This document shows, piece by piece, positions 7,002 to 44,996 of a stretch of 64,000 nt of DNA (position 1 is its first letter; the number at the start of each line of letters is the position of its first letter). The DNA comes from Pseudorhodoferax soli. Its GTDB lineage: Bacteria > Pseudomonadota > Gammaproteobacteria > Burkholderiales > Burkholderiaceae_C. Under the pieces are notes generated by a model, which saw only the letters and a list, made by a program, of their open reading frames with translations, had not been told where the DNA came from and did not search any database. Both the position numbers and the translations under genes were made by a program. The DNA is taken from assembly GCF_003337555.1 (NCBI RefSeq), contig NZ_QPJK01000006.1:1-64000 (forward strand), written 5' to 3'.

Positions 7002-7007
7002 CGTGGC

Positions 7008-7172: not shown

Positions 7173-7183
7173 GGTGTTGCTCC

Positions 7184-8673: not shown

Positions 8674-10247
8674 TGCGGTGCCTCCGCCAGCGCATCGACG
8701 CTGGCCGCGTGGCCCAGCTGGAGCACCACGGTGATCTGCTCGATGGCCATGGCCGGGCGCACCTGCAGCACGGCGACCAGGCGGCCGGCGTCCAGGTCGG
8801 CCTGGGTCATGGTGCTGCGGTCGCAGCGCACCGAGAAGGCCTGTGCGCGCGTGGCACCGCCGAACGCGCCGGCCTGCCAGAAGCCGGCCAGCAGTTCCTC
8901 CAGCGTGCCGCGCAGGCGGGCCCACAGGGCAGGGCCGTTGGGCTCGAACACAGCCGTGTCGCCGGCCCGCTGCGCCGCCTGCAGCAGCGTGCCGAGCAGC
9001 CGGCTGGCACCGCCGAAGCGCCAGGGGTCCAGCGCCGAGGCGCTGACGTCGGACTGCAGCGCCCAGCCTTCGGCCTGCTGCGCGAACAGGCACACCCGCC
9101 TTGCCAGCAAGGCGGACGGGCTGTCGGGCGCCAGGCCCCAGGCCGGCACCGGCTCGGCGCCGCCCACGTCGCGCAGCAGCGCCAGCGAACGGTCGCCGGC
9201 CACCGAGCGGTGCGTGCCCAGCGCCACCGCGCCCTGCGCGACGAGGCCGGCCAGCACGCCGTCGGCCGGCTCCAGGCCCTGCGGCAGATCGCCCACCGCG
9301 GCGCGGGTGCGCAGCCAGGGCCAGGCCAGCTGCGACAGCGCCTCGGCCGGGCGGCCCTGTGCGGTGTCTTCCGCCAGGCTGTCCGCCAGCACGCCGGCCT
9401 GCTGCAGGTAGTTGAGGAAGTCGGCCTGCGCATGCGTGCCGGCGGCGCTGCGCGTGTCGGCCTCGGGCAGTGGCAAGGCGGCCAGCAGCGTGGCGCTGCG
9501 CCGGTGCCGTGCCAGGAAGCCGCGCACGCGCCGCAGCGCGTCACGCCATTGCTGGTAGCCGGCGGCGTCCAGCCGCGGTGCGGGCACGCGCAGCAGGGCG
9601 GTGTCGGGATCGGGCGGCTGCTCGACGTCGCAGGGCGCGAAGCCCTCGGGCGGCGGTACGAGCGCGCGCGCGTTGTCCGGCGGCGGCGGCAGGCCGGCGC
9701 ACAGGTCGGGCAGGTCGGGCAGCAGCAGCAGGCTGGCGTGCGGCAGGCCGTAGAGGTGTTGCAGGCCCTGCCAGCTGGCGGGTTCGTGCGGCGCGAACGG
9801 TGTGGCCGTGGGCAACAGCCGCGCCAGGCGCGCGGCGCGCTGGGCGGTGCGCGTGGCACTGTCCTGCTGCACGGGCCAGGGATCGCCCACGCGCACGACG
9901 ATGGCACGCCTGCCGCCGCGCGCGAAGAAGCTGCGCACGGCGGCGCCCAGGTAGCTGGCGCAGCGGCGCGTGCCGGCCGCATCCACCGCGCGGCGGTCCC
10001 AGTCGTAGAAGCGGTCGAACAGGTGCCAGCTGTCGAGCGCCAGCGGCATGTCCAGCAGGTCTTCGATCTGCGCTGCGGGGCGCGCCCACGGGCCTGTCAC
10101 CCAGCCGCCCGCATCCAGCTGCGCGCGCAGCGCATCGGGCAGCGGGCGGCCCGCGCGGCGGCCGACGAAGCCGACGAAGCAGGCCACGTCCGACCGGTAG
10201 AGGTCGGCCGGGGCGCTTTGTGCGACGGGTTCGAAGACGAGGGCCAT
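8670..10247 (-). CDS. eCIS tail sheath protein 2 (divergent)
   Basis: This 525-residue protein shares the C-terminal sheath core with sheath 1: AVFEPNGPALWARLRGTLEELL, then AFSVRCDRSTMTQADLDAGR and an I-E-Q-I-T-V strand ending. The N-terminal half is different and lacks the usual 'PGVYVEE' start. It keeps YLGAAVRSFFARGGRRAIVVRVG near residues 100-125 (in part), equivalent to the 'AV.AYF.NGG..LYVVRV' block of sheaths. It is the first gene after repeat copy C and its start (ATG 10247) lies 25 bp from the element edge. Minor sheath proteins of this type form the baseplate-proximal ring in characterised eCIS. Confidence 0.88.
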   Translation of the reverse strand: MALVFEPVAQSAPADLYRSDVACFVGFVGRRAGRPLPDALRAQLDAGGWVTGPWARPAAQIEDLLDMPLALDSWHLFDRFYDWDRRAVDAAGTRRCASYLGAAVRSFFARGGRRAIVVRVGDPWPVQQDSATRTAQRAARLARLLPTATPFAPHEPASWQGLQHLYGLPHASLLLLPDLPDLCAGLPPPPDNARALVPPPEGFAPCDVEQPPDPDTALLRVPAPRLDAAGYQQWRDALRRVRGFLARHRRSATLLAALPLPEADTRSAAGTHAQADFLNYLQQAGVLADSLAEDTAQGRPAEALSQLAWPWLRTRAAVGDLPQGLEPADGVLAGLVAQGAVALGTHRSVAGDRSLALLRDVGGAEPVPAWGLAPDSPSALLARRVCLFAQQAEGWALQSDVSASALDPWRFGGASRLLGTLLQAAQRAGDTAVFEPNGPALWARLRGTLEELLAGFWQAGAFGGATRAQAFSVRCDRSTMTQADLDAGRLVAVLQVRPAMAIEQITVVLQLGHAASVDALAEAPQ

Positions 10248-10272
10248 GTCAGTCCCCTGGTGCCCGTGCCGT

Positions 10273-10971
10273 GGCCGAGCGCAGCGATGGCCCGAACCCC
10301 AGGCCGAGCGCAGCGATGGCCCGTGTGGGGGTTCCCCCTGTGCCCACGCCGAGGAGCGCAGTGGCCTGGGCGGCGCGGGGAACCTCGCGCTTTGTGAACT
10401 GACTCATTGCACTTGTCCGAGCTGAACGAACGCAGTGAGTGGTGCGAGTTGTGCAATGCGCCCAGGCCGCGAGCACCGCAGGTTGCCCGGAGCGCCAGCG
10501 GAGGGACGTGGGCACCGGGGCCGCCTTCTCTTTGGTTACTTTCTCTTGGCGGAGCAAGAGAAAGTGACTGCACTGCCGGGGGCATATCCCGGTCCCTGGT
10601 GCTTGTTCTGAAGCAGTGGGTTCTATCGAGAAATACGTCTGATCGAGGTGAGGAGGTGGGGCTATCCACCCCACACCCGGACTTACTTTTCTTGCTTCGC
10701 CAAGAAAAGTAAGCAAAAGAAGGCGACCCCGGTGCCCCTGTCCTTCCGCTTCGCTCCAGGCAACCTGCGGTGCTCGCGCCATGGGCTGCATTGCGCAACT
10801 CGCACCGTTCACTGCGTTCACTACGCTCGGACAAGCGCAATGAGTCAGATGTTGAAGCGCGAGGTTCCCCGCGCAGCCCATGGCACTGCGCTCCTCGGCA
10901 GGGGCACAGGGGGCAGTCCCACACGGGCCATCGCTGCGCTCGGCCGCGGACAGCCGTCGCTGCGCTCGGCC
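10273..10971. repeat. Inverted-repeat element, copy C (~699 bp)
   Basis: This copy has the same architecture and orientation as the one at 4512-5174. The left tip is doubled (GGCCGAGCGCAGCGATGGCC at 10273-10292 and 10302-10321) and so is the right tip (10926-10945 and 10953-10971). Both inner hairpins are present, and the diverged spacer of about 95 bp keeps the central stem as GTGGGG/CCCCAC with a 7-base loop. It separates the major sheath and tube genes from all the low-copy tail components. It starts 34 bp after the tube 1 stop and ends 25 bp before the sheath 2 start. Confidence 0.9.
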
Positions 10972-11005
10972 TGGGCTGACACGGCAGGTTGCTCGCATGT
11001 TGCCC

Positions 11006-11449
11006 TCAGGCGCTGAATTCCAGCGCTTCGGCGGACAGCACCACCTCTTCCATGGCGACGTCGCCGCCGCCCTTGCCGGCCAGCGTGGGCCCGCTGTACT
11101 TCATCGGGATCACGCCGCGCAGCACCCAGGACTGCACGGGCTTTTGTGCCTCGTCGAGCAGCGTGATGGTGACGCTGCGCTGCGCTTCGGGCCCCTTGAC
11201 GCGGGCGCTGCCGATCCAGTCGAACAGCGTTTTGGAGTTCAGGATGCCGCGCTTGAGCGTGACGTCGGAGACCTTGTGCACGCCGGCGACCTTGCGCACG
11301 TGGTTTTCCTTGTCGTTGCCGAAGCGGTACTCGGCCACCGTGAGCTCGGTGCCGATGCCCGACACGTCGGAGAAGCCGCCGAAGACTTCGCCGCCGTCGA
11401 AGTTGACGATGAAGTTGAAGGCGCCGTAGGGCGTGGTGCGGTTTGCCAT
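11006..11449 (-). CDS. eCIS major tail tube protein 1
   Basis: The 147-residue product is a gp19/Hcp-like inner tube protein (Afp1/Pvc1 type). Diagnostic pieces are YGAFNFIVNFDGGEVFGGFS at the N-terminus, DVSGIGTELTVAEYRFGND, DVTLKRGILNSKTLFDWI and the C-terminal EEVVLSAEALEF. A strong SD-like GAGGAG lies just upstream of ATG 11449, and the gene follows the sheath 1 stop by 10 bp. Sheath and tube are made in many copies per particle. The operon is interrupted by repeat copy C directly after this gene. Confidence 0.94.
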   Translation of the reverse strand: MANRTTPYGAFNFIVNFDGGEVFGGFSDVSGIGTELTVAEYRFGNDKENHVRKVAGVHKVSDVTLKRGILNSKTLFDWIGSARVKGPEAQRSVTITLLDEAQKPVQSWVLRGVIPMKYSGPTLAGKGGGDVAMEEVVLSAEALEFSA

Positions 11450-11459
11450 GGTGCGCTCC

Positions 11460-13232
11460 TCAGGCCGCGTCAGCGGTCATCTGGCCGATGCGGAAGATCA
11501 CGAACTCGGCCGGCTTGATGATGGCCACGCCGATCAGGCAGACCAGGCGGCCGTTGTCCAGGTCGTTCTGGGTCATGACGCTGCGGTCGCAGCGCACGAA
11601 GTAGGCCTGCTCGGACGTGCTGCCCAGGAGCGCGCCGTTGCGCCATTCGTTGTAGAGGAAGTCGGAGATGGTCTGGCGCACGTTGGCCCACAGGCGTTCG
11701 CCGTTGGGCTCGAACACGGCCCACTGCGTGCCGCGGTCGATGGACGACTCCAGGTAGTTGAAGTAGCGCCGGTCGGAGACGTACTTCCACTCCGGGTCGC
11801 TGGAGACCAGCCGCGCGCCCCAGACGCGGTAGCCGCGCCCGGAGAGGTAGCGCAGGCAGTTCACGCCCAGCGGGTTCAGCAGTTCCTGCTGCGCGAAGTT
11901 GACGTCGACCTCGAAGCGCAGCGCGCCGCTCACGATCTCGTTGGCCGGGGCCTTGTGCACGCCGCGCTGCACGTCGTTGCGGGCGTAGATGCCGGTCACG
12001 AAGCCCGAGGGCGGCAGCTCGATCTCGCGCGGGATGTCGTCGCGCCCGGGCCGCGCCAGCGGGTTGGCCACCACCACCCAGGGGTAGTAGAGCGCGGCGT
12101 GGCGCGAGTCGACACGGCCGCGCGCAGTGCGCATGTCGCCCGGCGTCTGGCGCGGTGCGCAGTCGAGCACGGCGATGCGGTAGGCGCGGCGGCGCTCGGC
12201 GTGGGTGATCAGCGCGTTCTGCACGGCCGGGCCTTCGGCATAGGCGCTGCTGCCGGGCGCGGCGACGATGGACACGTCCTCCAGGCCCGACAGCGTGGCC
12301 AGGGCCGCGGCGTAGCTCCCCGCCGTGGTCTCGGCGCCCAGCGTGGGCGCGTTGCCGTCGCTGCCGCCGGAGAGCAGCAGCTGCCGGCGCCCTTCGGTGT
12401 CGCCGGCCACGGCCGGCAGCGCGCGCACGGCGGCCAGCAAGGCGAAGGCGTCCACGTTGGCGCCGATGTCGGCCATGACCAGGTTGTTGAGCGCCTCGGC
12501 GCGGCTGCCGGGGTTCAACGCCAGCACGGTGCCCAGCCAGCGCGGGTGGGCGCGCGCCAGGCCCAGGTCTTCCCAGGTCTGCGCGCCGCCATCGGCATCG
12601 ACCACGTCGAGCGCCAGCGTGAGCAGGGCGGCCGTGGCGCCTTCGCCGCCGGGCACGTCGGCAGGGCCCAGGCCGGCGAGGTCCAGCGCGGTGGCGTCGG
12701 CCTCGGCCCAGGCGGCGCCGCTGCCCTGGTACAGGGTCTCGGCGCCGGCAGCCGTGATGGCCAGCAGGCTGCCGGCTGGCGCGGTGGCCATGGTGCGCAG
12801 CGTGGCCGGGCGCTGGGCCACGCGGAACAGCACGCGCCCATTGGCCGCTGCGCCCGGGAAGCGCGCGCGGACGACGACGCTGGCGGCCGCATCGGCGCCC
12901 GTCAGCAGCGCACCGGAGGCGGGCTGCGCGCCGTTGACGGTGCGCACCACGTACAACCGCGAGCCGCCGTTGTCGAAGTAGGCGCGCACCGCATGGGCGA
13001 CGTAGTTGAGCCGGCGCGCCGCGTCGGTCACGTCGGCCAGCTCCAGGTTCTCCAGCCCGCCGTAGACGTGCTCGAAGTCGGTCAGGCTGGTGACCATCTC
13101 GGGCACGCCGGCCACCGGGCCGCGCCGGGTGGGACCGACGAAGGCGGTGGTGCTGGTGCCCACGCCCTCGATGGATTTGGCGCGGAAGCTGGTTTCTTCC
13201 ACGTAGACGCCGGGTGCCAGGTATTCGGGCAT
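11460..13232 (-). CDS. eCIS major tail sheath protein 1
   Basis: This 590-residue protein is a canonical contractile sheath subunit. It opens PEYLAPGVYVEETSFRAKSI, has the HAVRAYFDNGGSRLYVVR block near residues 80-105, and ends with the conserved core: VFEPNGERLWANVRQTISDFL, AYFVRCDRSVMTQNDLDNGR and PAEFVIFRIGQMT (each in part). A good SD (AAAGGAG) lies 10 bp before ATG 13232. The insert between residues 140 and 330 is the variable surface domain. Contraction of the sheath around the tube drives injection. Confidence 0.95.
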   Translation of the reverse strand: MPEYLAPGVYVEETSFRAKSIEGVGTSTTAFVGPTRRGPVAGVPEMVTSLTDFEHVYGGLENLELADVTDAARRLNYVAHAVRAYFDNGGSRLYVVRTVNGAQPASGALLTGADAAASVVVRARFPGAAANGRVLFRVAQRPATLRTMATAPAGSLLAITAAGAETLYQGSGAAWAEADATALDLAGLGPADVPGGEGATAALLTLALDVVDADGGAQTWEDLGLARAHPRWLGTVLALNPGSRAEALNNLVMADIGANVDAFALLAAVRALPAVAGDTEGRRQLLLSGGSDGNAPTLGAETTAGSYAAALATLSGLEDVSIVAAPGSSAYAEGPAVQNALITHAERRRAYRIAVLDCAPRQTPGDMRTARGRVDSRHAALYYPWVVVANPLARPGRDDIPREIELPPSGFVTGIYARNDVQRGVHKAPANEIVSGALRFEVDVNFAQQELLNPLGVNCLRYLSGRGYRVWGARLVSSDPEWKYVSDRRYFNYLESSIDRGTQWAVFEPNGERLWANVRQTISDFLYNEWRNGALLGSTSEQAYFVRCDRSVMTQNDLDNGRLVCLIGVAIIKPAEFVIFRIGQMTADAA

Positions 13233-13288
13233 GGCCTAACTCCTTTCATGAAGGCGGGGAACGCCGTGACGCATCACTCGCTCGGCCT

Positions 13289-14092
13289 TCATGGCACTGC
13301 GAGCACAAGGGACAGGGTGAGGCTGCGCCCCGCTGCGAGCGCCACGGCCTGCGTGGCGTTCGGCAGCGTGGCGGCGCGGGATTCGAGACCGTCGGGGTCG
13401 ACCAGCGGCGGCGCGGCCGGCGCGCGGCCGGCCTGCACGGCGACGAGCGGCGTGCGCAGGCCGGCGGCGGGGTCGAACACCCATTGCAGCGTGGCCGCCA
13501 GTTCGCTGACGACCACGGCGTCGGGGTCGTCCGACCAGGTGGTGACGGGCACGCCGGGCACGGGCACCAGCGCTTCGCCGCGCCAGTCGGTCAGTCCGCG
13601 CGCCAGCACGCGGCCATCGGCGCGCACCAGCAGCAGTGCGCCGCCCAACGCATCGCCACTGGCCTCGGCGCGCACGCTTGCGCGCAGCAGCGACCAGTTG
13701 GCGCTGGTGGGCGCGGCGGCGGCGGGGTACAGCGCCAGTTCGACGGGCGTGAACAGGGAGTCCGGCTGGCCGGCCAAAGGATCGCGTGGCAGGGCCAGGG
13801 TGGCGCGGCGCGGCAGGTAGCGGCCCAGCGGGTCGTGCACGGTGAGCGGCAGCGCCACGCTGCCGAGTGCGGGGGCGGCTGGGGGCAGGGCGAAGGCCGT
13901 CTCGTGCGCGGCCAGGGCATCGGCGCGCACCAGCACGTACAGGCCGCCGCGGTTGCGGCGCACCGTGGCGCCGGCCACCTGCACTTGCAGCGGCGTGTCG
14001 ATCTGCGTGCGCGTGACGGCGTCGACGCAGCGCACGGCGCCCAGCACGCGCGTCTCCACGCGTTCGAGCTCGCGCAGCAGCAGCGCGCTCAC
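13289..14092 (-). CDS. Beta-rich eCIS-linked protein of unknown function
   Basis: The 267-residue product starts with GTG at 14092 in a GTGA overlap with the DUF4255 gene, so it is co-translated with it. No catalytic motif was recognised. The sequence is rich in short hydrophobic strands and has a segment resembling an Ig-like or carboxypeptidase-regulatory-like beta sandwich (RADGRVLARGLTDWRGEALVPVPGVP, about residues 150-180, in part). Characterised Pvc16-type cap proteins have a DUF4255 domain followed by a beta domain, so this could be a split-off second half of the cap. That reading is inference. Confidence 0.7.
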   Translation of the reverse strand: MSALLLRELERVETRVLGAVRCVDAVTRTQIDTPLQVQVAGATVRRNRGGLYVLVRADALAAHETAFALPPAAPALGSVALPLTVHDPLGRYLPRRATLALPRDPLAGQPDSLFTPVELALYPAAAAPTSANWSLLRASVRAEASGDALGGALLLVRADGRVLARGLTDWRGEALVPVPGVPVTTWSDDPDAVVVSELAATLQWVFDPAAGLRTPLVAVQAGRAPAAPPLVDPDGLESRAATLPNATQAVALAAGRSLTLSLVLAVP

Positions 14093-14688
14093 GATGGCGC
14101 CCCTGCTTGCACGGCTGTGCCGTGGACGAAGCGCGTGGCGACCACCGGCGCGGCATCCAGCAGTTGGTCCGGGTCGAGCCGCACGCGGCGCGCGATGTAG
14201 GAGACCGAGAGCCGGTAGGGCGGCTCCAGCGCGTCCCAGATGCGCATCATGTCCTCGGTGGACAGCTCGGACGGGATGATCTGCACCACCTCGTCCGGCC
14301 CCCAGCCGGCCTCGGGCGACAGCGCGGACGCGTCCAGGATGGGGTGCTGGTAGAACTGGCGCACGGCCCAGGCCATGGGCAGCAGCTCGTCCTGCGGGTT
14401 GCCGGCCCAGGCGGTCAGCAGCAGGTGCACGTCCAGGCCCAGCGGCGGCTGCTGGTCGGGCGACATGCGGTCGGGCCGGGCCTGGCGCAGGTGTTCGTTG
14501 ACGGTCAGGCGGTAGACGTACAGCGTGAGCCGCGTGCCGTCGTCCTGCGGGGCGGCCAGCTCGCCGGAGGACAGCAGCGCGAAGTCGCACTCGGGCATGG
14601 CCTGGCCGGCCACCGCGGCCGGGTAGGTGTTGCGCAGGTAGGTCACGAGGGACTGCCCCACCGAGTGGATCGCCTGGATGTTGGCCAT
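14089..14688 (-). CDS. DUF4255 (Pvc16 N-terminal-like) tail terminator/cap protein
   Basis: This 199-residue protein matches the DUF4255 family found in eCIS loci and known in PVC/Afp as the cap that closes the tube and sheath. Recognisable parts are an N-terminal helix (IHSVGQSLVTYLRNTYP), a LTLYVYRLTVNEHLR strand-turn, PLGLDVHLLLTAWA and SELSTEDMMRIWDALEPPYRLSVSY (in part). The last piece is the most conserved section of the family. It starts 22 bp after the small first gene, and its stop overlaps the next gene. Confidence 0.9.
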   Translation of the reverse strand: MANIQAIHSVGQSLVTYLRNTYPAAVAGQAMPECDFALLSSGELAAPQDDGTRLTLYVYRLTVNEHLRQARPDRMSPDQQPPLGLDVHLLLTAWAGNPQDELLPMAWAVRQFYQHPILDASALSPEAGWGPDEVVQIIPSELSTEDMMRIWDALEPPYRLSVSYIARRVRLDPDQLLDAAPVVATRFVHGTAVQAGAPS

Positions 14689-14710
14689 GGTCGTGCGTCA
14701 AGTTCTCTCG

Positions 14711-35182: not shown

Positions 35183-36043
35183 ATGCGCTCTTTGCTCCTG
35201 CCCCTGATCGCCGCCGCCATGCCGGCCTTCGCCCACGTCACCTTGCCGCCCGGCGGCGCCGCTGCCGGCAGCGACTACGAGGCCGCGTTCCGCGTCGGCC
35301 ACGCCTGCAAGGACACGCCAGCCACCACGGCCGTCACCGTCCGCCTGCCCGAGGGCTTCACGCTGGCCGAGGCGCAGCCGCGCGCCGGCTGGACCTTGGC
35401 CAGCAGCCCGCGCGAGGTGCGCTGGACGGCCGATGCCGCCAGCGCCTTGCCCGACAAGGAGCGCGCCGAGTTCGTCGTGCGCGGCAAGCTCACCAGCCAG
35501 CCCGGCACGCTGTGGTTCCCGGTGCGCCAGGACTGCGGCACGCAAAGCGCCGACTGGGCCCAGTTGCCCGGCACGGACGCGAGCGCCAAGCTGCCGTTCC
35601 CTGCCGCGCGGCTCGACGTGCTGGCACCGGGCGTCGCCGCCGTGGACGTCAAGAACGCCTGGGCACGGCCCAGCGTGCCGGGCCAAAGCGGCACCGGCGC
35701 CTTCATGCAGCTCAGCGCGCCGCAGGGCCTGCGCCTGGTCGGCGTGGCGACGCCGCTGGCCGGCGTGGCCGAAGTGCACGAGATGAAGATGGACGGCGGC
35801 ACCATGCGCATGCGCGAACTGACGGAGGGGCTGGCGCTGCCGGCGCGGCAGGCCGTCGAGCTCAAGCCCGGCGGCCTGCACCTGATGCTGATGGACCTCA
35901 AGCAGCCGCTGGCCAAGGGCACGCAGCTGCCGCTGACGCTGCGCTTCGTGGATGCCAAGGGCGTGGCGAGCCAGCGCGAGGTGCAGGTGCCGGTGGGCGT
36001 GCCGGAAGGGGCCGCGGCGGGCGCGCAGGGCCACGTGCACTGA
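35183..36043 (+). CDS. YcnI-PCuAC two-domain copper-binding protein
   Basis: The 286-residue protein begins with a signal peptide cut at FA|HVTLPPGGA, leaving the N-terminal His that makes the copper brace of YcnI (DUF1775). Residues 18-150 are the YcnI domain (GHACKDTPATTAVTVRLPEG, WFPVRQDCG). Residues about 153-286 are a PCuAC (DUF461) domain with the Met/His motif VHEMKMDGG, TMRMREL and GGLHLMLMDL, plus a His-rich tail (GHVH). PCuAC chaperones deliver Cu(I) to cytochrome oxidase. It starts 13 bp after the TonB receptor with a good SD (AAAGGAAA). Confidence 0.9.
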   Translation: MRSLLLPLIAAAMPAFAHVTLPPGGAAAGSDYEAAFRVGHACKDTPATTAVTVRLPEGFTLAEAQPRAGWTLASSPREVRWTADAASALPDKERAEFVVRGKLTSQPGTLWFPVRQDCGTQSADWAQLPGTDASAKLPFPAARLDVLAPGVAAVDVKNAWARPSVPGQSGTGAFMQLSAPQGLRLVGVATPLAGVAEVHEMKMDGGTMRMRELTEGLALPARQAVELKPGGLHLMLMDLKQPLAKGTQLPLTLRFVDAKGVASQREVQVPVGVPEGAAAGAQGHVH

Positions 36044-36135: not shown

Positions 36136-38151
36136 ATGAGCAAAACCATCCCCTGTGTCCTGATGCGCGCCGGCACCTCGCGCGGACCCTTCTTCCTGCG
36201 CGAGTGGCTGCCCGAGGGCGACGAGGCGCGTGACCAGGCGCTGATCGGCGCCATCGGCGCGTCCGACCCCTTGCAGCTCGATGGCGTGGGCGGCGGCAGC
36301 ACGCTGAACAGCAAGGTGGCCATCGTCTCGCGCTCGAGCGTGCCGGGCTGCGACCTGGACTATTTGTTCGCACAGGTCGGCGTGGGCCACCGCTCGGTCG
36401 ACACGCGGCCCAACTGCGGCAACATGCTCTCGGGCGTGGCGCCGTTCGCCATCGAGCAGGGTCTGGTCGAGGCGCAGCAGGGCACGACCAAGGTGCGCGT
36501 GCACAACGTCAACACCGGCGCGCGCATCGACGTGACCGTGCGCACGCCGGGCGGCCGCGTCACCTACGCGGGCGATGCCCGCATCGACGGCGTGGCCGGC
36601 ACGGCCGCCCCCATCCTGCTGGACTTCCTCGATGCCTGGGGCGCCGTCACCGGCCAAGTCTTCCCCACCGGCCAGCGCATCGACCGCATCCAGGGCGTGG
36701 AGGTCAGCTGCATCGACGCGGCCATGCCGCTCATGATCGTGCGCGCGGCCGACCTGGGCGTCAGCGGGCGCGAGAAGCCGGTGGCGCTGGACGCCGACAC
36801 GGCCCTGCTCGAACGCATCGAATCGCTGCGGCTGGAGGTGGGCCTGCGCATGGGCCTGGGCGACGTGTCGAACAGCGTGATCCCCAAGCCGGTGCTCGTC
36901 AGCGCCGGCGAATCGGCCAACAGCATCACCTCGCGCTACTTCACGCCGCGGCGCTGCCACGCATCGCATGCGGTGACCGGCGCCATCGGCGTGGCCAGCG
37001 CGTTCGCGCTGCCGGGCACGGTGGCCAGCGGCATGGCACGCAGCGCCGGTTGCCACCAGCTGACGGTGCTGCACCCGGCCGGGCAGATCGACATCGAGGT
37101 CGAGCTCGGCGGCGCGGGCGAGGCCGTCAGCGTGCAGCGCGCCGCCCTGGTGCGCACCGCGCGCAAGATCATGCAGGGCGAGCTGCACCTGCCCGACTAC
37201 GTGTTTTCGCGTCCCGAAGAGGCCGCGCAGCCCGCTGCGCGCAAGCCGCTCACCCTGATCGTGCCGACCAGCGCGGGCGGCGGCAACGACACCATGGCCC
37301 GCATCATCGCCGCCAAGCTGGCGCCGCTGCTGGGCCAGGAGGTGCTGGTCGACAACCGCGCCGGTGCCAACGGCGCCGTGGCCAGCGAGTACGTGGCCGG
37401 CGCGGCCCCCGATGGCCAGACCCTGATGTTCGGCTACGTGGGCACGCATGCGATGAACCCGGCGCTGCAGAAGCTGGGCTACGACCCGGTGGCCGATTTC
37501 GCGCCCATCGGCCTGGTCGGCTCCTCGCCGACGCTGATGGTGGCGCACCCGGACCTGCAGAGCGGCGATGTGCCCGCGCTGGTGGCGGCCCTGCGTGCGC
37601 AGCCCGGCCGCTACGCCTATGCGTCGGCCGGCGAGGGCACGCCGCCGCACTTCGCCGCGGCACTGTTCCAGCTGGCCACGGGCGCGCGCATGGCCGGCAG
37701 CACCTACCAGGGCGCTGCGCCGGCCATCGCCGACACGGCCAGCGGGCGCACGCAGATCATGTTCCCCAGCCTGTTCACGGCCCACCCCTTCGTGCACAGC
37801 GGTCGACTGCGCGCACTCGCCGTGGCCGGCCCGCAGCGGCTGCCGGGCCTGCCCGACGTGCCCACGCTGGCCGAGGCCGGCGTGCCGGGCGTGGACGTGA
37901 CGCAGTGGTATGGCCTGTTCGCCCCCGCGCGCACGCCGCACGACCGCGTCGACACCTTGAACCAGGCGCTGAACCAGGTGCTGGCCGATCCAGCGGTCGT
38001 CCAGCTGTTCGAACAGCACGGCGCGCGCGTGGAGGCGGGCACACCGCAGATGTTGGCCGCCCGCGTGCAGGCCGACCTGGCGCGCTGGCAGGCCGTCGTC
38101 GCGCAGGGCGGGCTGGCGGTCGCCGAACAGCGCGCGGCGGTGCTCGAGTAG
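36136..38151 (+). CDS. PrpF-family isomerase fused to a Bug receptor domain
   Basis: This 671-residue protein joins two families in one uninterrupted frame. Residues 1-358 are a PrpF/4-oxalomesaconate tautomerase-type isomerase: PCVLMRAGTSRGPFF, DGVGGGSTLNSKVAIV, DTRPNCGNMLSGVAPFAIE and a terminal LPDYVFSRP. Residues about 370-671 are a Bug receptor without signal peptide: LTLIVPTSAGGGNDTMARII, NRAGANGAVASEYVAGAAPDG, THAMNPALQKLGYDPVADF. That half is very similar to the receptor at 39428-40399. PrpF enzymes shift double bonds in unsaturated tricarboxylates in the cytoplasm, whereas Bug proteins normally work in the periplasm. Here no export signal is visible, so the Bug half would be cytoplasmic. 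The gene starts 29 bp from a LysR-type motif. Confidence 0.85.
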   Translation: MSKTIPCVLMRAGTSRGPFFLREWLPEGDEARDQALIGAIGASDPLQLDGVGGGSTLNSKVAIVSRSSVPGCDLDYLFAQVGVGHRSVDTRPNCGNMLSGVAPFAIEQGLVEAQQGTTKVRVHNVNTGARIDVTVRTPGGRVTYAGDARIDGVAGTAAPILLDFLDAWGAVTGQVFPTGQRIDRIQGVEVSCIDAAMPLMIVRAADLGVSGREKPVALDADTALLERIESLRLEVGLRMGLGDVSNSVIPKPVLVSAGESANSITSRYFTPRRCHASHAVTGAIGVASAFALPGTVASGMARSAGCHQLTVLHPAGQIDIEVELGGAGEAVSVQRAALVRTARKIMQGELHLPDYVFSRPEEAAQPAARKPLTLIVPTSAGGGNDTMARIIAAKLAPLLGQEVLVDNRAGANGAVASEYVAGAAPDGQTLMFGYVGTHAMNPALQKLGYDPVADFAPIGLVGSSPTLMVAHPDLQSGDVPALVAALRAQPGRYAYASAGEGTPPHFAAALFQLATGARMAGSTYQGAAPAIADTASGRTQIMFPSLFTAHPFVHSGRLRALAVAGPQRLPGLPDVPTLAEAGVPGVDVTQWYGLFAPARTPHDRVDTLNQALNQVLADPAVVQLFEQHGARVEAGTPQMLAARVQADLARWQAVVAQGGLAVAEQRAAVLE

Positions 38152-38318: not shown

Positions 38319-39425
38319 TCAGAAGTGGTGCCGCACCCCTGCGCTGAACCCCGTCGCCCGCTTCTTGTTGGCCGCGCCCTGGAACCCGCCCTGCCACCGC
38401 GTGTGGTCGGCTTCGAGGTAGACCATGCTGCGCCGCGACAGCTTGTACTCGGCGAACGCCACCGTGCGGCCGTAGCCATCGTCGGCGCGCGCGCTGCGCT
38501 CGCGCGCCACCCGGTAGTGCGCCAAGGTGAGGTCGACGAACGCGCCCGCGGGCACCGTGGCGCCCAGGCCCAGCGTGCGCAGCGCGGCGCGCGTCGTTGC
38601 GCTGGTGTGGGCCTGGCTGCGCGCATAGAGGGCCGCCAGGCGGATGCCGCCTTCCAGGGTGTAGGCGGCGCCCAGCACGTGGCCACGCAGGCCCAGCGTG
38701 TCGTCGTTGTTGCGAAAGCGCTGGTGCGCTGCCGACAGCTGCAGCCGGCCCAGCTTGTAGCCCAGGCCCACGCCGGTGGAATCCGAAGCCCCGCTGTTGC
38801 CAGGCACCTCGCCCAGGCTGTGCATCAGCCGCACGTGCAGGCCGCCGAACTCGGCGTTGTACTTGATGCTGTTGTTCAGCCGGTACGAGCCCGTGGCCGA
38901 CCCGCTCGCGCCGTAGCCCACGCCCAGCTGGTGCTGGCTCAGGGCCGCCACGTTGATGGCCGGGTTGAAGCTGGCCAGCCGCATGCCCAGCGGATCGATG
39001 GGCGAGATGGCATCGGCCAGCAGCGTGGTCTGGCGCCCCAGGCTGACCAGGCCCCAGGGGCCGCCCAGGCCGACCCAGGACTGGCGGTCGAAGTACATGG
39101 TGGAACTCGCCGGTGCGCCCGTCTTGGCATTGATGCCCGATTCGAGCTGCGCCTGCGCGCTGAGCCCGCCGCCCAGGTCTTCCTGGACGCGGATGCCCCA
39201 GCGGCTGGTGTTGTTGAGCCCGCTGGACATGGTGGTGGCCGATGTGTCGCTGGGCGCGAACTCGTTGAGCCCGCTGGCGCGGCGCATCGACAAATCGACG
39301 ATGCCGTACAGGCGTGCGCTGCTTTGCGCCTGCGCGCAGTCGGCGGCCAGCGCGCACAGGGTGGCCAGCGCCGCCGGCGCGATCAGCTTGCGCTGCATGG
39401 AAGGGGCTTGGGCCAGGGTGGGCAT
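38319..39425 (-). CDS. Gram-negative trimeric porin
   Basis: The 368-residue porin is of the betaproteobacterial Omp32/OpcP type. It has a signal peptide cut near CAQAQ, then SSARLYGIVDLSMRRASG, SRWGIRVQEDLGGGLSAQAQLESGIN, TMYFDRQSWVGLGGPWGLVSLGRQ (all in part) and the C-terminal beta signal TGFSAGVRHHF ending in Phe. ATG 39425 lies 2 bp past the Bug stop; an alternative start is 39398 (MQRKL). Co-transcription with the Bug receptor suggests it lets the same carboxylate across the outer membrane. Confidence 0.88.
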   Translation of the reverse strand: MPTLAQAPSMQRKLIAPAALATLCALAADCAQAQSSARLYGIVDLSMRRASGLNEFAPSDTSATTMSSGLNNTSRWGIRVQEDLGGGLSAQAQLESGINAKTGAPASSTMYFDRQSWVGLGGPWGLVSLGRQTTLLADAISPIDPLGMRLASFNPAINVAALSQHQLGVGYGASGSATGSYRLNNSIKYNAEFGGLHVRLMHSLGEVPGNSGASDSTGVGLGYKLGRLQLSAAHQRFRNNDDTLGLRGHVLGAAYTLEGGIRLAALYARSQAHTSATTRAALRTLGLGATVPAGAFVDLTLAHYRVARERSARADDGYGRTVAFAEYKLSRRSMVYLEADHTRWQGGFQGAANKKRATGFSAGVRHHF

Positions 39426-39427
39426 GC

Positions 39428-40399
39428 TCAGTCGGCCTTCAGTCCGGTGGCCTGCACCACCTTCTTCCACTTGACCTGCTCGGCCGCGACGAAGCTGCGC
39501 ATCTGCGGCAGGGTCATGGTCTCCACTTCGGCGCCGCTTTCGACCAGCTTGTGGGCGATGGCCTTGTCCGCCAGGATGCGGTTGAGCGTGGCGTTCAGCT
39601 GCTCCAGCACGGGCGCAGGCGTCTTGGCGGGCGCGAACATGGCGTACCACTGCGAGACGTCCACGCCGGCGATGCCCTGTTCGGCCAGCGTGGGCACATC
39701 GGGCAGCAGGGTGGAGCGCTTGCTCCCGGCCACGCCCATGGCCTTGAGCTTGCCGTTCTTGACGAAGGTCATGGCCGTGAACAGGCTCGGGAACATCACC
39801 TGCGTCTGTCCGGCCATGGTGTCGTTGACCGCCGGCGCGGAGCCCTTGTAGGGCACGTGCAGCATGTCCACCCCGGCGGACAGCTTGAACATCTCGGCAG
39901 CGAAGTGGGGCGCGGTGCCGTTGCCGGCCGACGCGTAGGAGGCCGGCTCCTTGCTTTGCTTGAACTGCGCCACGAACTCCTTGGCGTTGTTGGCCTTGAC
40001 CTTGGGGCTGACCACCATCAACGTGGCCGACGAACCGACCATGGCCACGGGCTCGAAGTCGGCCACCGGGTCGTAGCGCAGCTTCTGCAGCGCCGGGTTC
40101 ATGGCGTGCGTGGCGATGTAGCCCAGCATCAGCGTGTAGCCATCGGGCGCGGCGCGCTTCACGTATTCGCTGGCGATGGCACCGTTGGCGCCGGCCTTGT
40201 TCTCCACGATCACGGTCTGCTTCAGTGCCAGCGAGAGCGCCTGCCCGAGGGTGCGGGCCATCGCATCGTTGGCGCCGCCGGCCGAAGTGGGCACGACGAT
40301 GGTGATGCTCTTCTCGGGCCAGGCGGCCGCCGCTGTGCCGCAGGCGAATGCGGCGGCGGCGGCGATGGCGCCGACCAGGTGTCGTTGTGGAAACTTCAT
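39428..40399 (-). CDS. Bug-family (TTT) solute receptor of the carboxylate module
   Basis: The 323-residue protein has a signal peptide (MKFPQRHLVGAIAAAAAFA, cut near GTAAAA) and the Bug motifs WPEKSITIVVPTSAGGAND, VENKAGANGAIASEYV, AAPDGYTLMLGYI, MLHVPYKGSAPAV and LPDVPTLAEQG. It is the closest relative in the window of the Bug half of the PrpF fusion (shared THAMNPALQKL.YDPVADF). It is divergent from the LysR gene and followed by the porin. The ligand is probably an unsaturated dicarboxylate or tricarboxylate. Confidence 0.9.
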   Translation of the reverse strand: MKFPQRHLVGAIAAAAAFACGTAAAAWPEKSITIVVPTSAGGANDAMARTLGQALSLALKQTVIVENKAGANGAIASEYVKRAAPDGYTLMLGYIATHAMNPALQKLRYDPVADFEPVAMVGSSATLMVVSPKVKANNAKEFVAQFKQSKEPASYASAGNGTAPHFAAEMFKLSAGVDMLHVPYKGSAPAVNDTMAGQTQVMFPSLFTAMTFVKNGKLKAMGVAGSKRSTLLPDVPTLAEQGIAGVDVSQWYAMFAPAKTPAPVLEQLNATLNRILADKAIAHKLVESGAEVETMTLPQMRSFVAAEQVKWKKVVQATGLKAD

Positions 40400-40533: not shown

Positions 40534-41460
40534 ATGGCCATCAACTTCAACCTCAACGACCTGCAGGCCTTCCGCACCGTGGCCGAGCTGTCGAGCTTTC
40601 GCAAGGCGGCGGACGCTTTGCACGTGTCGCAGCCGGCGTTCAGCCGGCGCATCGAGAAGCTGGAAGAGGCCCTGGGCGTGAAGCTGCTGGAGCGCACCAC
40701 GCGCAAGGTCAGCCTGACGGCCGTGGGCCGCGATTTCGACCGCAAGGTGCAGCAGCTGCTGGACGACCTGGACAACACGCTGCTGGGCATCCGCGGCGTG
40801 GCCGGCACGCGCATGGGCGAGGTCACGATCGCGTGCGTGCCGTCCACGGTGTACTACTACTTGTCGCAGGTGGTCTCGCGCTACCACGAGCGCTACCCGA
40901 AGATCCGAGTCAGGGTGTTCGATGCGGGCGCCAACGATGTGCTGGCGGCCGTGGCGCGCAGCGAGGCCGATTTCGGCCTCAACTTCATCGGCAGCCAGGA
41001 GCCCGACATCGAGTTCAAGCCCTTGCTGGAAGAGCGTTTCGTGGCCGCGTGCCGGCGCGACCATCCACTGGCGAAGAAGCGCAAGGTGGGCTGGGCCGAG
41101 CTGGGCCAGTACGACTTCATCTCGGTCAGCAAGACATCGGGCAACCGGCTGCTGCTGGACCAGGCGCTCGCGGGTCTGCCAGGGCGCCCGCAGGCCATCT
41201 ACGAGGCGCAGCACGTGACCACCATGCTGGGGCTGGTGGAGGCGGGGCTGGGCGTGGCGGCCGTGCCTTCGCTGGCCATGCCGGGCGCCGACCATCCGCT
41301 GCTGGTCAGCGTGCCGCTGGTCGACCCCATCGTCACGCGCAAGGTGGGTCTGATCCGGCGCAAGGGCCGGCCGCTGTCGCCGGCGGCGCAGCAGCTCTAC
41401 GATTTCTTCGCGGAGATGAAAGGCAAGCGCGCCCTCGCGGCCAAGCGCGCGCCTGCGTGA
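40534..41460 (+). CDS. LysR-family regulator of the carboxylate module
   Basis: The 308-residue product has a typical LysR HTH (LNDLQAFRTVAELSSFRKAA, HVSQPAFSRRIEKLEEALG, LERTTRKVSLTAVG) and a periplasmic-binding-protein-like effector domain (VTIACVPSTVYYYLSQVVSRY, LGVAAVPSLAMPG). It is divergent from the Bug-porin pair and converges with the lyase-CoA transferase-hydratase operon with only 7 bp between stops. The three copies of the 29-bp motif mark the units it probably controls. Confidence 0.92.
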   Translation: MAINFNLNDLQAFRTVAELSSFRKAADALHVSQPAFSRRIEKLEEALGVKLLERTTRKVSLTAVGRDFDRKVQQLLDDLDNTLLGIRGVAGTRMGEVTIACVPSTVYYYLSQVVSRYHERYPKIRVRVFDAGANDVLAAVARSEADFGLNFIGSQEPDIEFKPLLEERFVAACRRDHPLAKKRKVGWAELGQYDFISVSKTSGNRLLLDQALAGLPGRPQAIYEAQHVTTMLGLVEAGLGVAAVPSLAMPGADHPLLVSVPLVDPIVTRKVGLIRRKGRPLSPAAQQLYDFFAEMKGKRALAAKRAPA

Positions 41461-41467: not shown

Positions 41468-42814
41468 CTACCCGCGGGCAGCCAGCACCCGGTCGACCAT
41501 CACGCCGGCCTGGCCCAGGTGGTTCGCCGGCTCGCACATCGCTTCCAGTTGCGCGCGCGTCACGTGCTTGGTGATCTCCGGGTGCACGGCCAGGACCTCG
41601 ATCAGCGGCCGGTCCTTGGCGATCGCCTCGCGGCACAGGTCATACACCAGGTCGTGCGCGTACTCGCGGCCGATGTAGGGCCCCAGGCCCATCATCACGG
41701 CCTCGGACATCACCAGGCCGTTGGTCATGGCGATGTTGGCGCGCATGCGGGCGCCATCCACCTCCAGGCCCTTCAGGATGAACTTGGTCTGCTTGAGCGC
41801 GCCCGACATCAGGCAGAAGATCTCGGGCAGCGACACCCATTCGATCTCCCAGGGGCCGGTGGAGCGCTCGTGGTCGGCCACCATCGCGTCCATCAGCGCA
41901 GCGGCGTGCTGGCGCGCCACCGAGATGTTGGCGTGGATGTACAGGCACGAGATCGGGTTGCGCTTTTGCGGCATGGTGGAGGATGAGCCGCGCCCGGGTG
42001 CGTAGGGCTCGAAGACCTCGGCCACTTCGGTCTGCATCATGAGCTTCACGTCCATGGCGATCTTGCCCAGCGAGCCGCCCACCAGGCCCAGGAAGGCGCC
42101 GACCTCGGCAATGGTGTCGCGCACCGTGTGCCAGGAGATCAGCGGTTGGGCCAGGCCCAGCTCCTGCATCAGCGCGGCCTGGGTTTCCATCGCACCCTTC
42201 TCCAGCGACGACAGCGTGCCCGACGCACCGCCGAACTCGCCCATCAGCACGCGCGGCTTGAGCTGCTGCAGCCGCTCGCGATGGCGGTCGATGCCGGCCA
42301 GGATGCTGGCCATCTTGTAGCCGAAGGTGATGGGCGTGGCCTGCTGCAGGTTGGAGCGGCCGATGACCGGTGTGTCGCGGTACTTCCTGGCCAGCGATGC
42401 CAGCGCATCGCCGATCTCGTTCAGGTCCTGCTCGACCAGCGCCAGGCCTTCGCGCATCTGCAGCACGGCGGCGGTGTCGGTGATGTCTTGCGTGGTGGCG
42501 CCCCAGTGGCAGTACTCGCCAAGCTTGTCACGGCAGTGGGCGTTGATCTGGTTGACCACCGCGATGATGGGATAGCCGATCTGCTCGGTCTTGGCCTTGA
42601 GCTGCACCCAGTCGATCTGCGACAGCTCGCAGTTCTTGACGATCTCGTCGGCCGCCTCCTGCGGAATGATGCCGAGACGGCCCTGCACCCTGGCCAAGGC
42701 GCGCTCGATGTCCAGGTACTTGGCGGTGCGGTTCTCGTCGGACCAGACTTCGCGCATGCGCGCGTCGCTGAACATGTCGCCGAAGATGCGCGAGTCGATG
42801 ATGGTGGCTGCCAT
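41468..42814 (-). CDS. Fumarate-lyase-superfamily enzyme (PcaB/adenylosuccinate-lyase-like)
   Basis: The 448-residue protein carries the superfamily signature GSSTMPQKRNPISCLYI at about residues 270-286, and YCHWGATTQDITDTAAVLQMRE and GRSNLQQATPITFGYKMA blocks typical of carboxy-muconate cycloisomerase and related lyases. The family adds or removes a group across a fumarate-like double bond. Together with a CoA-transferase and hydratase it probably handles an unsaturated dicarboxylic acid rather than purines. It is the last gene of the operon, 27 bp after the CoA-transferase. Confidence 0.85.
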   Translation of the reverse strand: MAATIIDSRIFGDMFSDARMREVWSDENRTAKYLDIERALARVQGRLGIIPQEAADEIVKNCELSQIDWVQLKAKTEQIGYPIIAVVNQINAHCRDKLGEYCHWGATTQDITDTAAVLQMREGLALVEQDLNEIGDALASLARKYRDTPVIGRSNLQQATPITFGYKMASILAGIDRHRERLQQLKPRVLMGEFGGASGTLSSLEKGAMETQAALMQELGLAQPLISWHTVRDTIAEVGAFLGLVGGSLGKIAMDVKLMMQTEVAEVFEPYAPGRGSSSTMPQKRNPISCLYIHANISVARQHAAALMDAMVADHERSTGPWEIEWVSLPEIFCLMSGALKQTKFILKGLEVDGARMRANIAMTNGLVMSEAVMMGLGPYIGREYAHDLVYDLCREAIAKDRPLIEVLAVHPEITKHVTRAQLEAMCEPANHLGQAGVMVDRVLAARG

Positions 42815-42841: not shown

Positions 42842-44041
42842 TCAGACCGTCTGGGCGGCGCGCAGTGCGGCGATGTCGCCGGCCGCGTAGCCCAGTTCGG
42901 CCAGGATGGCGTCGGTGTGCTGGCCCAGTGCGGGCACCGGGTCCATGCGCGGGCCGCCCGCCTCGCCGCCCCAGCTGCCGGGCGGCAGCATGGCAGGCAG
43001 CGGGCCCTGCGGCGAGCCGACCTCGGTCCAGCGGCCACGCGCCTGCAGCTGCGGGTGCGCCCAGACCTCGGCCATGGTGTTGACCTGGGCGTTCGCGATC
43101 TGCGCCTGCTCCAGCCGCGTGACGACCTGCGCTGCGGTCAGCGGCGCGAACGCGTCCACGATGATCTGGCGCAGCGCGACGCGCTCGGCCACGCGCTTGA
43201 AGTTGGCGGTGAAGCGCGGGTCGGTGGCCAGCGTGGGCTGCTGCAGCACGGTGGTGCAGAAGCTGGCCCACTCGCGCTCGTTCTGCAGGCCCAGCATCAC
43301 GGTGCCGCCGTCGCCCGCGGGGAACGGGCCGTAGGGGTAGATGGTGGCGTGGCTGGCGCCCGTGCGCGGCGGCGGCGCGGCGCCCTCGAACGCGTAGTAC
43401 AGCGGGTAGCTGGTCCACTCGGCCAGCGATTCCAGCATGGAGATGTCGATGCGCTGGCCGCGCCCGGTCTGGCTGCGCTGCATCAGCGCGGCCAGGATGT
43501 TGGTGTACGCGTACATTCCCGCTGCGATGTCGGCGATCGAGGGGCCGGCCTTGCAAGGCTCGTCGGGCGTACCGGTCACGGAGACGAAGCCGGCCTCGCT
43601 CTGGATCAGCAGGTCGTAGGCCTTCTTGTCGCGGTAGGGGCCGGGGTTGACCGGGTCGTCGCCGTAGCCCGAGATGTCGCACACGATCAGGCCGGGCTTG
43701 CGCGGGGAGAGCGCCTCGTAGCCCATGCCCAGCCGCGCGGCGGCGCCGGGCGCGAGGTTCTGCACCACCACGTCGGCCTTCTCCAGCACCAGGCGCTCGA
43801 GCACCTTGGCGGCCTCGGGATGCTTGACATCCAGCGTCAGGCTTTCCTTGGAGCGGTTGGTCCAGACGAAGTGCGAGGCCAGGCCGCGTACGCGCTGGTC
43901 ATAGCCGCGGGCGAAGTCGCCGCTGCCCGGGCGTTCGATCTTGATGACGCGGGCGCCCAGGTCGGCGAGCTGGCGGGTGGCGAACGGCGCGGCGATGGCG
44001 TGTTCGAGCGTGACGACGGTGATGCCTTTGAGGGGTTGCAT
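42842..44041 (-). CDS. Class III (CaiB/BaiF) CoA-transferase
   Basis: The 399-residue enzyme begins LKGITVVTLEHAIAAPFATRQLADLGARVIKIERPGSGDFAR (in part), the typical start of formyl-CoA/citramalate CoA-transferases. It has the catalytic Asp in GPSIADIAAGMYAYTNILAAL and the SLTLDVKHPEAAKVLERLV block. Such enzymes transfer CoA from succinyl-CoA or another donor to an organic acid. It lies between the MaoC-type hydratase (16 bp) and the lyase, suggesting activation of a C4-C6 acid followed by hydration. Confidence 0.9.
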   Translation of the reverse strand: MQPLKGITVVTLEHAIAAPFATRQLADLGARVIKIERPGSGDFARGYDQRVRGLASHFVWTNRSKESLTLDVKHPEAAKVLERLVLEKADVVVQNLAPGAAARLGMGYEALSPRKPGLIVCDISGYGDDPVNPGPYRDKKAYDLLIQSEAGFVSVTGTPDEPCKAGPSIADIAAGMYAYTNILAALMQRSQTGRGQRIDISMLESLAEWTSYPLYYAFEGAAPPPRTGASHATIYPYGPFPAGDGGTVMLGLQNEREWASFCTTVLQQPTLATDPRFTANFKRVAERVALRQIIVDAFAPLTAAQVVTRLEQAQIANAQVNTMAEVWAHPQLQARGRWTEVGSPQGPLPAMLPPGSWGGEAGGPRMDPVPALGQHTDAILAELGYAAGDIAALRAAQTV

Positions 44042-44057: not shown

Positions 44058-44927
44058 TCAGCGCAAGGTGGCGGTGGCGTCCATCGTCAGCCAGCCTTCG
44101 TGGTCACTGGCCCACAGGCGCACGGTCTTGCCGTCGGCCTGCAGTTCGCCGTTGACGTGGAAGGGGTGCAGGTCGAAGGTCGGCCGCACGGCCTTGAAGC
44201 GGAAGCTCGCCACGTCGGCACCGGGCAGCTGGCGCCGCAGCAGATCCATCAGCAAGGTGGCGATCAGCGGGCCGTGCACGATCAGGCCGGGGTAGCCCTC
44301 GACCTGGGTGACGTACTGTCGGTCGTAGTGGATGCGGTGGCCGTTGAAGGTCAGCGCCGAGTAGCGGAACAGCAGCACGTCGTCGGGCACGATCTCGCGG
44401 CGCCAACCCGTGGCTGCGGTGCCCTTCTCCGCGTCCTGGGGCGGCGGGGCCACGTCGTTCGGGCCCTGGGCTTCGCGGTAGACAATGTCGTGGAACTCGA
44501 CCAGCGCCGGGTCGGCGGCGCCGTTGCAGCGCACCTCATGCCGCACCTTGACGAACACCAGCTTGCCCGTGCGGCCCTCCTTGGTGCTGACGTCGTCGAT
44601 GGTGGAGGTGCGGGCCACGGCGTCGCCCACACGGATCGGCGTGTGGAACGCGAATTGGCTGCCCGCCCACATGCGGCGCGGCAGCGGCACTGGCGGCATG
44701 AAGCCGCCGCGCCTGGCGTGGCCGTCGGCGCCGATGTCCGACTGGCGGTGCAGCGGCAGGAAGTAGAGCCAGTGCCACAGCGGCGGCAGTGGCACGCCTG
44801 TGGACGTGTCGGCGGCGGGGTGGTCCAGGGTGGCCGTGAGGGCTGCGACCTGCGTGGGATGGACGGTGTCCTGGACGGTCTCGCTGCGGCCGATCCAGGC
44901 CTGCAGCGCTTGCGTGGCTGTGCTCAC
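44058..44927 (-). CDS. MaoC-like acyl-CoA hydratase (mesaconyl/itaconyl-CoA hydratase type)
   Basis: The 289-residue protein matches the FAS1-like/MaoC double-hotdog hydratases. The N-terminal half contains PLPPLWHWLYFLP and GGFMPPVPLPRRMWAGSQF, both frequent in mesaconyl-C4-CoA and itaconyl-CoA hydratases. The C-terminal half has FRYSALTFNGHRIHYDRQYVTQVEGYPGLIVHGPLIATLL (in part), with the catalytic Asp/His region. GTG 44927 with SD GGAGA is preferred to longer frames. It is the first gene of the three-gene operon. Confidence 0.85.
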   Translation of the reverse strand: MSTATQALQAWIGRSETVQDTVHPTQVAALTATLDHPAADTSTGVPLPPLWHWLYFLPLHRQSDIGADGHARRGGFMPPVPLPRRMWAGSQFAFHTPIRVGDAVARTSTIDDVSTKEGRTGKLVFVKVRHEVRCNGAADPALVEFHDIVYREAQGPNDVAPPPQDAEKGTAATGWRREIVPDDVLLFRYSALTFNGHRIHYDRQYVTQVEGYPGLIVHGPLIATLLMDLLRRQLPGADVASFRFKAVRPTFDLHPFHVNGELQADGKTVRLWASDHEGWLTMDATATLR

Positions 44928-44996
44928 TTGCGTCTCCGGTGGTTGGCTGCGTGCGGTGCAGCGTTGCCGGGCAGTGTGGAGCAGCTCCATCGCCAA

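Follow-up and report, generated by a model that had tools for sequence, protein, structure and literature searches.

The window analysed here is a stretch of 64,000 nucleotides from Pseudorhodoferax soli (positions 1 to 64,000 of contig NZ_QPJK01000006.1), and the subject of this report is a gene at 36136..38151 on its forward strand that joins a PrpF-family isomerase and a TctC/Bug domain, the latter known from periplasmic transport receptors, in one product of 671 amino acids. The open reading frame (ORF) begins with ATG and extends over 671 codons with zero internal stops. Pfam PrpF matches residues 4-353 (363 bits, cut-off 27) and Pfam TctC matches residues 388-659 (188 bits, cut-off 27). 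The isomerase half (residues 1-355; 36136..37200, forward strand) is recognised by Pfam PrpF, the NCBIfam model NF033377 and Foldseek. A hydrophilic linker containing VFSRPEEAAQ follows at approximately residues 356-369 (37201..37242, forward strand), against about 359-369 in the initial annotation, and the Bug half occupies residues 370-671 (37243..38148, forward strand). An antisense ORF of 1084 codons overlaps the fusion ORF, hence its length is weak proof by itself and the case is carried by homology and selection.

Neither the N-terminus nor the linker of the window fusion was found to contain an export signal peptide, and the linker is also devoid of a GGAGA ribosome-binding site with a start codon. 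The isomerase fold starts right at the N-terminus (a strand at residues 3-12 of the structural model; the PDB relative 6otv aligned from query residue 3), thus leaving no room for a signal peptide there. The initial annotation, which had described one 671-residue PrpF-Bug chain without a signal peptide, was therefore borne out by the open frame, by both Pfam domains and by inspection of the N-terminus and linker. The fusion is a real two-domain protein made of a cytoplasmic-type isomerase and a signal-less Bug, and judging from its sequence it is very probably located in the cytoplasm.

The same full-length match recurred in 6/6 genomes of the genus, which ruled out a sequencing or assembly error and settled the earlier doubt over a stop or frame change at the junction. 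A contig scan gave 133 relatives, and the best 80 of these, ranked by the full-length query and therefore favouring fusions, all carried the isomerase and Bug in one open frame (80/80). The closest named relatives among the matches listed were Pseudorhodoferax, and the other loci belonged to named Burkholderiales or broadly assigned bins, one of them labelled Vitreoscilla. One fusion (L086) lies on a contig binned as the actinobacterium Modestobacter and is possibly misbinned. A less biased count was obtained from a family sample of 397 genomes, 68 of which matched at an E-value of 1e-100 or below (64 to the isomerase half and four to Bug only). All 64 genomes with the isomerase were taken as loci, with the window as L001, and were classified as fused in one frame (48/64), as adjacent genes (15/64) or as an isomerase without Bug beside it (1/64, G640). 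Across the locus sets as a whole, some genomes occur twice. The isomerase of G640 (L186) belongs to the same group and falls near the unfused adjacent-gene loci in the tree.

Beyond the family, a whole-protein match was found in three genomes (G005, G125 and G244) of an order sample of 300, and besides the window's own there was no full-length match at E 1e-90 in 298/298 genomes of a phylum sample of 299. The two-domain order is therefore carried by many genera; fusions across the scanned relatives and the family sample ruled out a strain oddity, and together with the conservation of the Bug half they contradict a fusion confined to one strain with a degenerate Bug half. Long plasmid hits had raised the possibility of an alphaproteobacterial fusion, which was ruled out for Rhizobium rhizoryzae and Microvirga (L211, L212), where an isomerase gene is followed by a Bug gene with a signal peptide, each in a separate frame of its own. 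Because the genes are adjacent on these plasmids, the isomerase-Bug pairing itself extends past Burkholderiales. In Sinorhizobium sojae the hit spanned residues 1-498, yet a search of frames of at least 200 amino acids at E 1e-20 gave the isomerase only.

The loci could be sorted into three states of the junction, with family counts of 15/64 for state A, 28/64 for state B and 20/64, including the window, for state C. In state A the isomerase gene stops and the adjacent Bug gene has its own signal peptide; the Bug domain starts 62-324 bases past the isomerase domain with the signal peptide in between, and a signal-like stretch was present in 15/15 family loci. In state B no stop closes the isomerase frame, which continues through a GGAGA site located 4 or 7 bases upstream of an ATG or GTG, and through a hydrophobic signal peptide, into Bug (e.g. 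VFSRPPEGDKPMKRLLAPALAAALAAAAPAALA). Further examples of state B are L043, L051, L061-L064, L066-L071, L073, L087, L185, L187, L190, L201 and L206-L209, among others. By genus, Sphaerotilus and Ideonella provide instances of state B, and Variovorax of state C. The combination of GGAGA site, start codon and signal peptide was found in 27/27 state B loci of the first set and 28/28 of the family sample, and in 0/20 family genomes of state C. State B may thus represent nested genes whose two products, a chain of isomerase, signal and Bug on the one hand and an exported Bug by itself on the other, would occupy different compartments. In state C the two domains are joined by a hydrophilic linker, which measures 9-21 residues in the family genomes and extends to at most 36 in other loci (L048, L052, L056). 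The 15-residue hydropathy of the linker was at most 0.77 in the 20 family loci of state C and at least 1.43 in the 28 of state B; the latter include L225 (G348), reassigned by hand from C to B as its value of 1.43 was just below the threshold of 1.5 and it has a GGAGA site, a start codon, a signal peptide and basic charge.

The Bug half of state C is under purifying selection. Ratios of nonsynonymous to synonymous substitution (dN/dS) were calculated by the Nei-Gojobori method with an in-house script for hand-chosen groups, and gave medians of 0.08-0.18 for the fused Bug half in five state C groups, at a median synonymous divergence (dS) of up to 1.3. Separate Bugs gave medians of 0.12-0.24 (four groups) and the isomerase half 0.05-0.11, while in one state B group the values were 0.20 for Bug and 0.24 for the isomerase. 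Since the medians are similar, the fused Bug half appears to be constrained like a separate Bug. Twelve residues of the cleft core (P377, T378, G381, G382, N384, D385, G501, G526, S545, Q590, W591 and Y592) are identical in 78/78 state C halves and are common to the 78 C, 26 B, 11 A and 45 separate Bugs of the alignment, from which ten sequences without P..AGG were left out (L029, L077, L079, L151, L153, L178, L181, L182, L189 and L210). The initial annotation had stated that the ligand-pocket motifs are kept; this holds for most pocket and hinge residues but not for all. Across the domain, 14 positions that are conserved among the 82 sequences of A, B and separate Bugs are variable among the 72 main state C halves.

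State C also differs in charge. Bugs of states A and B and separate Bugs have a net charge of +4 to +10, typically about +6, against -7 to +4 (median -2) for the main state C halves; in the window the values are -3 for the fused half and +8 for the nearby separate Bug. The median number of lysines is 20-24 in A, B and separate Bugs versus 5 in the main state C halves. Separate Bugs of the state C loci keep 24 lysines, which excludes genome base composition as the cause of the loss. Six state C rows outside the main clade have shifted alike, with 0-12 lysines and a net charge of -3 to +2. A domain relocated from the periplasm to the cytoplasm would be expected to shift in this way, and the basic halves of state B agree with continued export of Bug from its own start.

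An AlphaFold2 model was based on 67 aligned proteins from the window and the loci (mean predicted local distance difference test (pLDDT) 84.7, predicted template modelling score (pTM) 0.50). Both folds are mostly confident, with pLDDT mostly above 90 in the Bug half and low-confidence stretches at residues 45-57 and 152-154 of the enzyme half. The modelled Bug half resembles closed or ligand-bound Bugs (Foldseek template modelling score (TMt) 0.92-0.94, with 0.93-0.94 for 8hka, 7nds and 5oei) more than TphC and the terephthalate-binding protein (TBP) in open or apo form (7ndr, 8hk9; 0.80-0.83). The Bug half is closest to BugE, AdpC and TBP, the names BugE and AdpC being those given for these entries in the accessible part of PMC5812351. 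The fused half has the Bug fold, the closed-cleft shape and the core motifs in common with the TctC/Bug receptors AdpC, TphC, BugD, BugE and TBP; these are periplasmic, whereas the window Bug half is fused, acidic and without the signal and the PYK motif. In the window protein Thr378 replaces the aromatic F30 of TphC, and this threonine is present in all 160 aligned Bug sequences.

For the trees, identical and near-identical rows were thinned, and 12 of the 71 unfused outgroup rows were used for the isomerase tree. In this tree the order is unfused outgroup, A, B and C, with exceptions, and 65 state C rows form one supported clade. None of these 65 rows is without a Bug half, though most of them came from the fusion-favouring search, and 0/16 unfused isomerases of the family sample fall within the clade. 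In the Bug tree the main state C halves share a group (support 91) with the Bugs of states A and B and with nine separate Bugs; those from Pseudorhodoferax and Variovorax that are encoded separately fall outside this group. The separate Bug of the window (39431..40399, reverse strand; Pfam TctC) has a signal peptide recognised by eye (MKFPQRHLVGAIAAAAAFACGTAAA). The close likeness proposed earlier between this receptor and the fused half stands as far as the subfamily is concerned, but the two are only 53% identical and belong to different lineages of the Bug tree (support 91, not starred), which ruled out a recent copy of the neighbouring Bug as the source of the fused half. Another Bug with at least 48% identity was present in 43/70 state C loci (the window counted by hand) versus 0/26 of state B, and in the family sample in 14/20 (the window's Bug added by hand) versus 0/28. 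These counts only partly uphold a requirement for a second Bug wherever the signal has disappeared. As a side observation, the genome is rich in Bug genes: at least 150 matches to the fusion protein were obtained from 265 candidates, 150 of which were scored, and the Bug half accounted for most of these matches.

By sequence, the enzyme half is closest to the 4-oxalomesaconate tautomerase/YbhH group. The initial annotation had named it a PrpF isomerase; the family is right, but the protein scores as a 4-oxalomesaconate tautomerase and not as PrpF proper, with 189 bits against TIGR02334 (PrpF 2-methylaconitate isomerase sensu stricto), below the cut-off of 440.55. The fusion is the genome's sole match to NF033377, the 4-oxalomesaconate tautomerase model, at E 0.001. 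Its nearest solved relatives are YbhH and LigU (TMt 0.89 to 6otv and 0.84 to LigU 6p3j), with which it has the isomerase fold, the Lys/Cys pair and the passing of the NCBI cut-off in common; those chains are single-domain and 350-365 amino acids long, while in the window protein a Bug domain of some 300 residues is appended and the genes recurring nearby are different ones. The pair in LigU was identified from the titles of the K66M and C100S PDB entries, and with an offset of 6 it aligns with Lys60 (36313..36315, forward strand) and Cys94 (36415..36417, forward strand) of the fusion, both invariant in 67/67 rows. The PrpF of Shewanella oneidensis, of the same family and with the catalytic Lys/Cys, isomerises trans-aconitate; according to the accessible part of the source it differs in being a single-domain enzyme of the 2-methylcitric acid cycle, and the identity in the fold match is 31% (PMC5690661).

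The genes downstream of the fusion were annotated as a porin (38322..39440, reverse strand; Pfam Porin_4; start uncertain), the separate Bug, a LysR regulator (40534..41460, forward strand; Pfam), a Tad1-like lyase as candidate trans-aconitate decarboxylase (41468..42814, reverse strand), a family III coenzyme A (CoA)-transferase as candidate itaconate CoA-transferase (42842..44041, reverse strand; Pfam), and a FAS1-type/MaoC-like hydratase as candidate itaconyl-CoA hydratase (44061..44963, reverse strand; start uncertain; Pfam FAS1_DH_region above and MaoC below cut-off). The best PDB match of the lyase is Tad1 of Ustilago maydis, with 533 bits versus 381 for the bacterial 3-carboxymuconate cycloisomerase 1re5. 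Across 121 loci the recurrent neighbour clusters, named by one representative each (two for the hydratase), were LysR (79), fumarase-superfamily lyase (66), CoA-transferase III (64), CitE-like lyase (57), FAS1/MaoC-type hydratase (45), TcuA (28), TcuB (26) and DctA (20). The lyase, CoA-transferase, CitE and hydratase clusters accompany states B and C and occur in 0/17 state A loci; TcuA is found in 9/17 and TcuB in 7/17 state A loci, and the representatives of both are above cut-off.

These recurring neighbours point to trans-aconitate/tricarballylate catabolism, and we infer a putative route from trans-aconitate to itaconate, itaconyl-CoA, citramalyl-CoA and finally acetyl-CoA and pyruvate, the steps from itaconate onwards being those of the known itaconate pathway. 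The same neighbours make an aconitate delta-isomerase, with aconitate as substrate, the probable identity of the enzyme half. The partner of Tad1 in U. maydis is Adi1, an aconitate delta-isomerase of the PrpF family whose table match is oxalomesaconate tautomerase (accessible part of PMC4720413). The window locus follows this pattern, as a PrpF-family isomerase is accompanied by a Tad1-like decarboxylase gene in both; the U. maydis system differs in being fungal and biosynthetic, with no receptor fusion mentioned in the part of the paper available, while the window locus is bacterial and probably catabolic (PMC4720413).

Elsewhere in the window, the gene run at 286-14697 on the reverse strand presumably encodes a phage-tail-like contractile particle, with a probable tail sheath protein at 11463-13235. 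The neighbour at 35183-36043 on the forward strand looks two-part, and we take it to combine a YcnI-like (DUF1775) portion with one resembling the copper chaperone PCuAC.

Overall, an obligately cytoplasmic two-domain aconitate isomerase with a captured Bug kept as a ligand-binding module is the reading we put forward, at about even chances. The N-terminal half would be a PrpF-type isomerase interconverting cis- and trans-aconitate for trans-aconitate/tricarballylate catabolism, and the C-terminal half would derive from the formerly separately exported Bug product of an adjacent downstream gene. Loss of the stop between the two genes would have given state B, in which Bug could still be started from its own ribosome-binding site and exported; deletion of the ribosome-binding site, start codon and signal peptide would then have given state C and trapped Bug inside the cell, where the Bug half would have been retained by selection, likely capturing or sensing a pathway tricarboxylate beside the enzyme. 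We lean slightly towards ligand binding by the fused half, and hold its use in capture or sensing to be plausible at somewhat less than an even chance. The initial annotation had suggested that such a domain could sense or channel the isomerase's substrate or act allosterically, and these roles are hypothetical here. More tentative is the full proposal that a captured transporter receptor now binds tricarboxylates inside the cell, as a module feeding or gating the isomerisation of aconitate, and that relatives keep a two-product intermediate whose isomerase-receptor chain may be membrane-tethered.

Several observations weigh against this reading, and those on the pocket bear at the same time on its main rival, a rather unlikely one in our estimate, by which the Bug half is purely structural, stabilising, oligomerising or tethering the isomerase and binding no ligand. 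The PYK motif (523-525) is gone from the state C halves; the conserved Lys/Arg residues at 422, 446, 487, 512, 554 and 567 are varied, several of the lysines being replaced (some by Arg), although 446, 487 and 554 are often still basic; and position 503 (P503 in the window protein; Ala503 is conserved outside state C), which corresponds to the ligand contact T155 of TphC, varies in state C, the TphC contacts being taken from the accessible part of PMC8556258. With conservation lost both in PYK and at a ligand contact, the binding behaviour of the fused Bug may have changed. Mean entropy over 22 pocket positions is 0.41 in state C versus 0.14-0.18 in the other classes, indicating a looser pocket, the halves have no confident relative placement in the model (pTM 0.50), and purifying selection needs no ligand binding. 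A structural role is opposed by the twelve cleft-core residues that are identical throughout state C, by a pocket that varies less than the rest of the domain within state C (0.41 versus 1.22), and by the closed, ligand-bound shape of the model. No conserved new interface stood out clearly on the state C halves. The order in the isomerase tree has exceptions. The state A rows L175 and L184 fall among B, and the state C rows L048, L052, L056, L082 and L086 fall outside the main clade, so that signal loss probably happened more than once; the number of such changes is uncertain, being 5 in the isomerase tree, 2 in the Bug tree and 3 in the joined tree. In 3/3 independent pairs lysine loss accompanies state C, a sample too small to reach significance (p 0.25 in a sign test). 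Presence of a second Bug was identical within the three pairs, and its association with state C therefore rests mostly on one large clade. Weak Shine-Dalgarno-like strings precede a start codon in 5/82 state C linkers (L033, L050, L055, L077 and L088), with no signal peptide behind them in any of the five.

The remaining alternatives concern the fate of the fused half and the substrate of the enzyme. State B does show an origin of the fusion by loss of the intergenic stop, and many state C loci have another Bug for transport, as would suit an inert relic, that is, a read-through fusion whose signal was lost and whose Bug half is tolerated but useless; given that the Bug half is under selection at considerable divergence, and that neither a row without a Bug half nor an unfused family isomerase was found in the main clade, most of whose rows come from the fusion-favouring search, we regard this as improbable. 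Export or membrane anchoring of the full-length protein despite the missing signal is conceivable insofar as the internal signal peptide of state B could hold the isomerase at the membrane, but the low linker hydropathy of state C and the loss of the basic charge of its relatives make it the least probable of the alternatives, with very little chance of being correct. An unlikely but separate alternative, compatible with the other rivals, is a genuine 4-oxalomesaconate tautomerase of aromatic catabolism whose Bug half binds an aromatic-pathway tricarboxylate. The enzyme half does exceed the NF033377 cut-off (487.7 bits versus 440), its Lys and Cys align with the LigU pair, and the window lyase is also just above the NCBIfam PcaB model (359.8 versus a cut-off of 355.75). 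The tautomerase and PcaB scores also weigh against our own reading, as do two further points: the CitE-like representative scores below its itaconate-specific cut-off (161 versus 375), and the window has no CitE-like gene beside the other cluster genes. On the other hand, 4-oxalomesaconate tautomerase is a broad name, since the E. coli YbhH record bears the same annotation, and neither a ring-cleavage dioxygenase nor any sign of a protocatechuate 4,5- or gallate-cleavage pathway was found among the annotated recurrent neighbours, which also include a porin, non-recurrent genes having been left unannotated.

In agreement with the initial annotation, to which no protein of this architecture was known, no published description of a PrpF-Bug fusion was found in literature searches, which were partial in coverage and mostly without subscription papers. 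A 2022 account of the binding-protein repertoire mentions cytosolic members and sensor domains, and such a fusion is not named in its accessible part (PMC9602780). The window fusion resembles these cases in having a binding-protein fold, very probably in the cytosol; they are sensor domains of signalling proteins and cytosolic single-domain proteins, whereas the window domain is fused to a metabolic isomerase (PMC9602780, accessible part). The product name of the single annotated fusion inspected, from Variovorax sp. SRS16, omits the receptor half.

To our knowledge, it is uncommon for a protein domain to move between compartments, and rare for the steps of such a move to survive. Here a single bacterial family contains unfused, read-through and fully captured forms side by side, and the charge of the domain changes measurably once export ends; how a component of transport evolves into an additional domain of an enzyme becomes directly testable. 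The findings also suggest trans-aconitate/itaconate catabolism as a possible function for genes annotated as 4-oxalomesaconate tautomerase.
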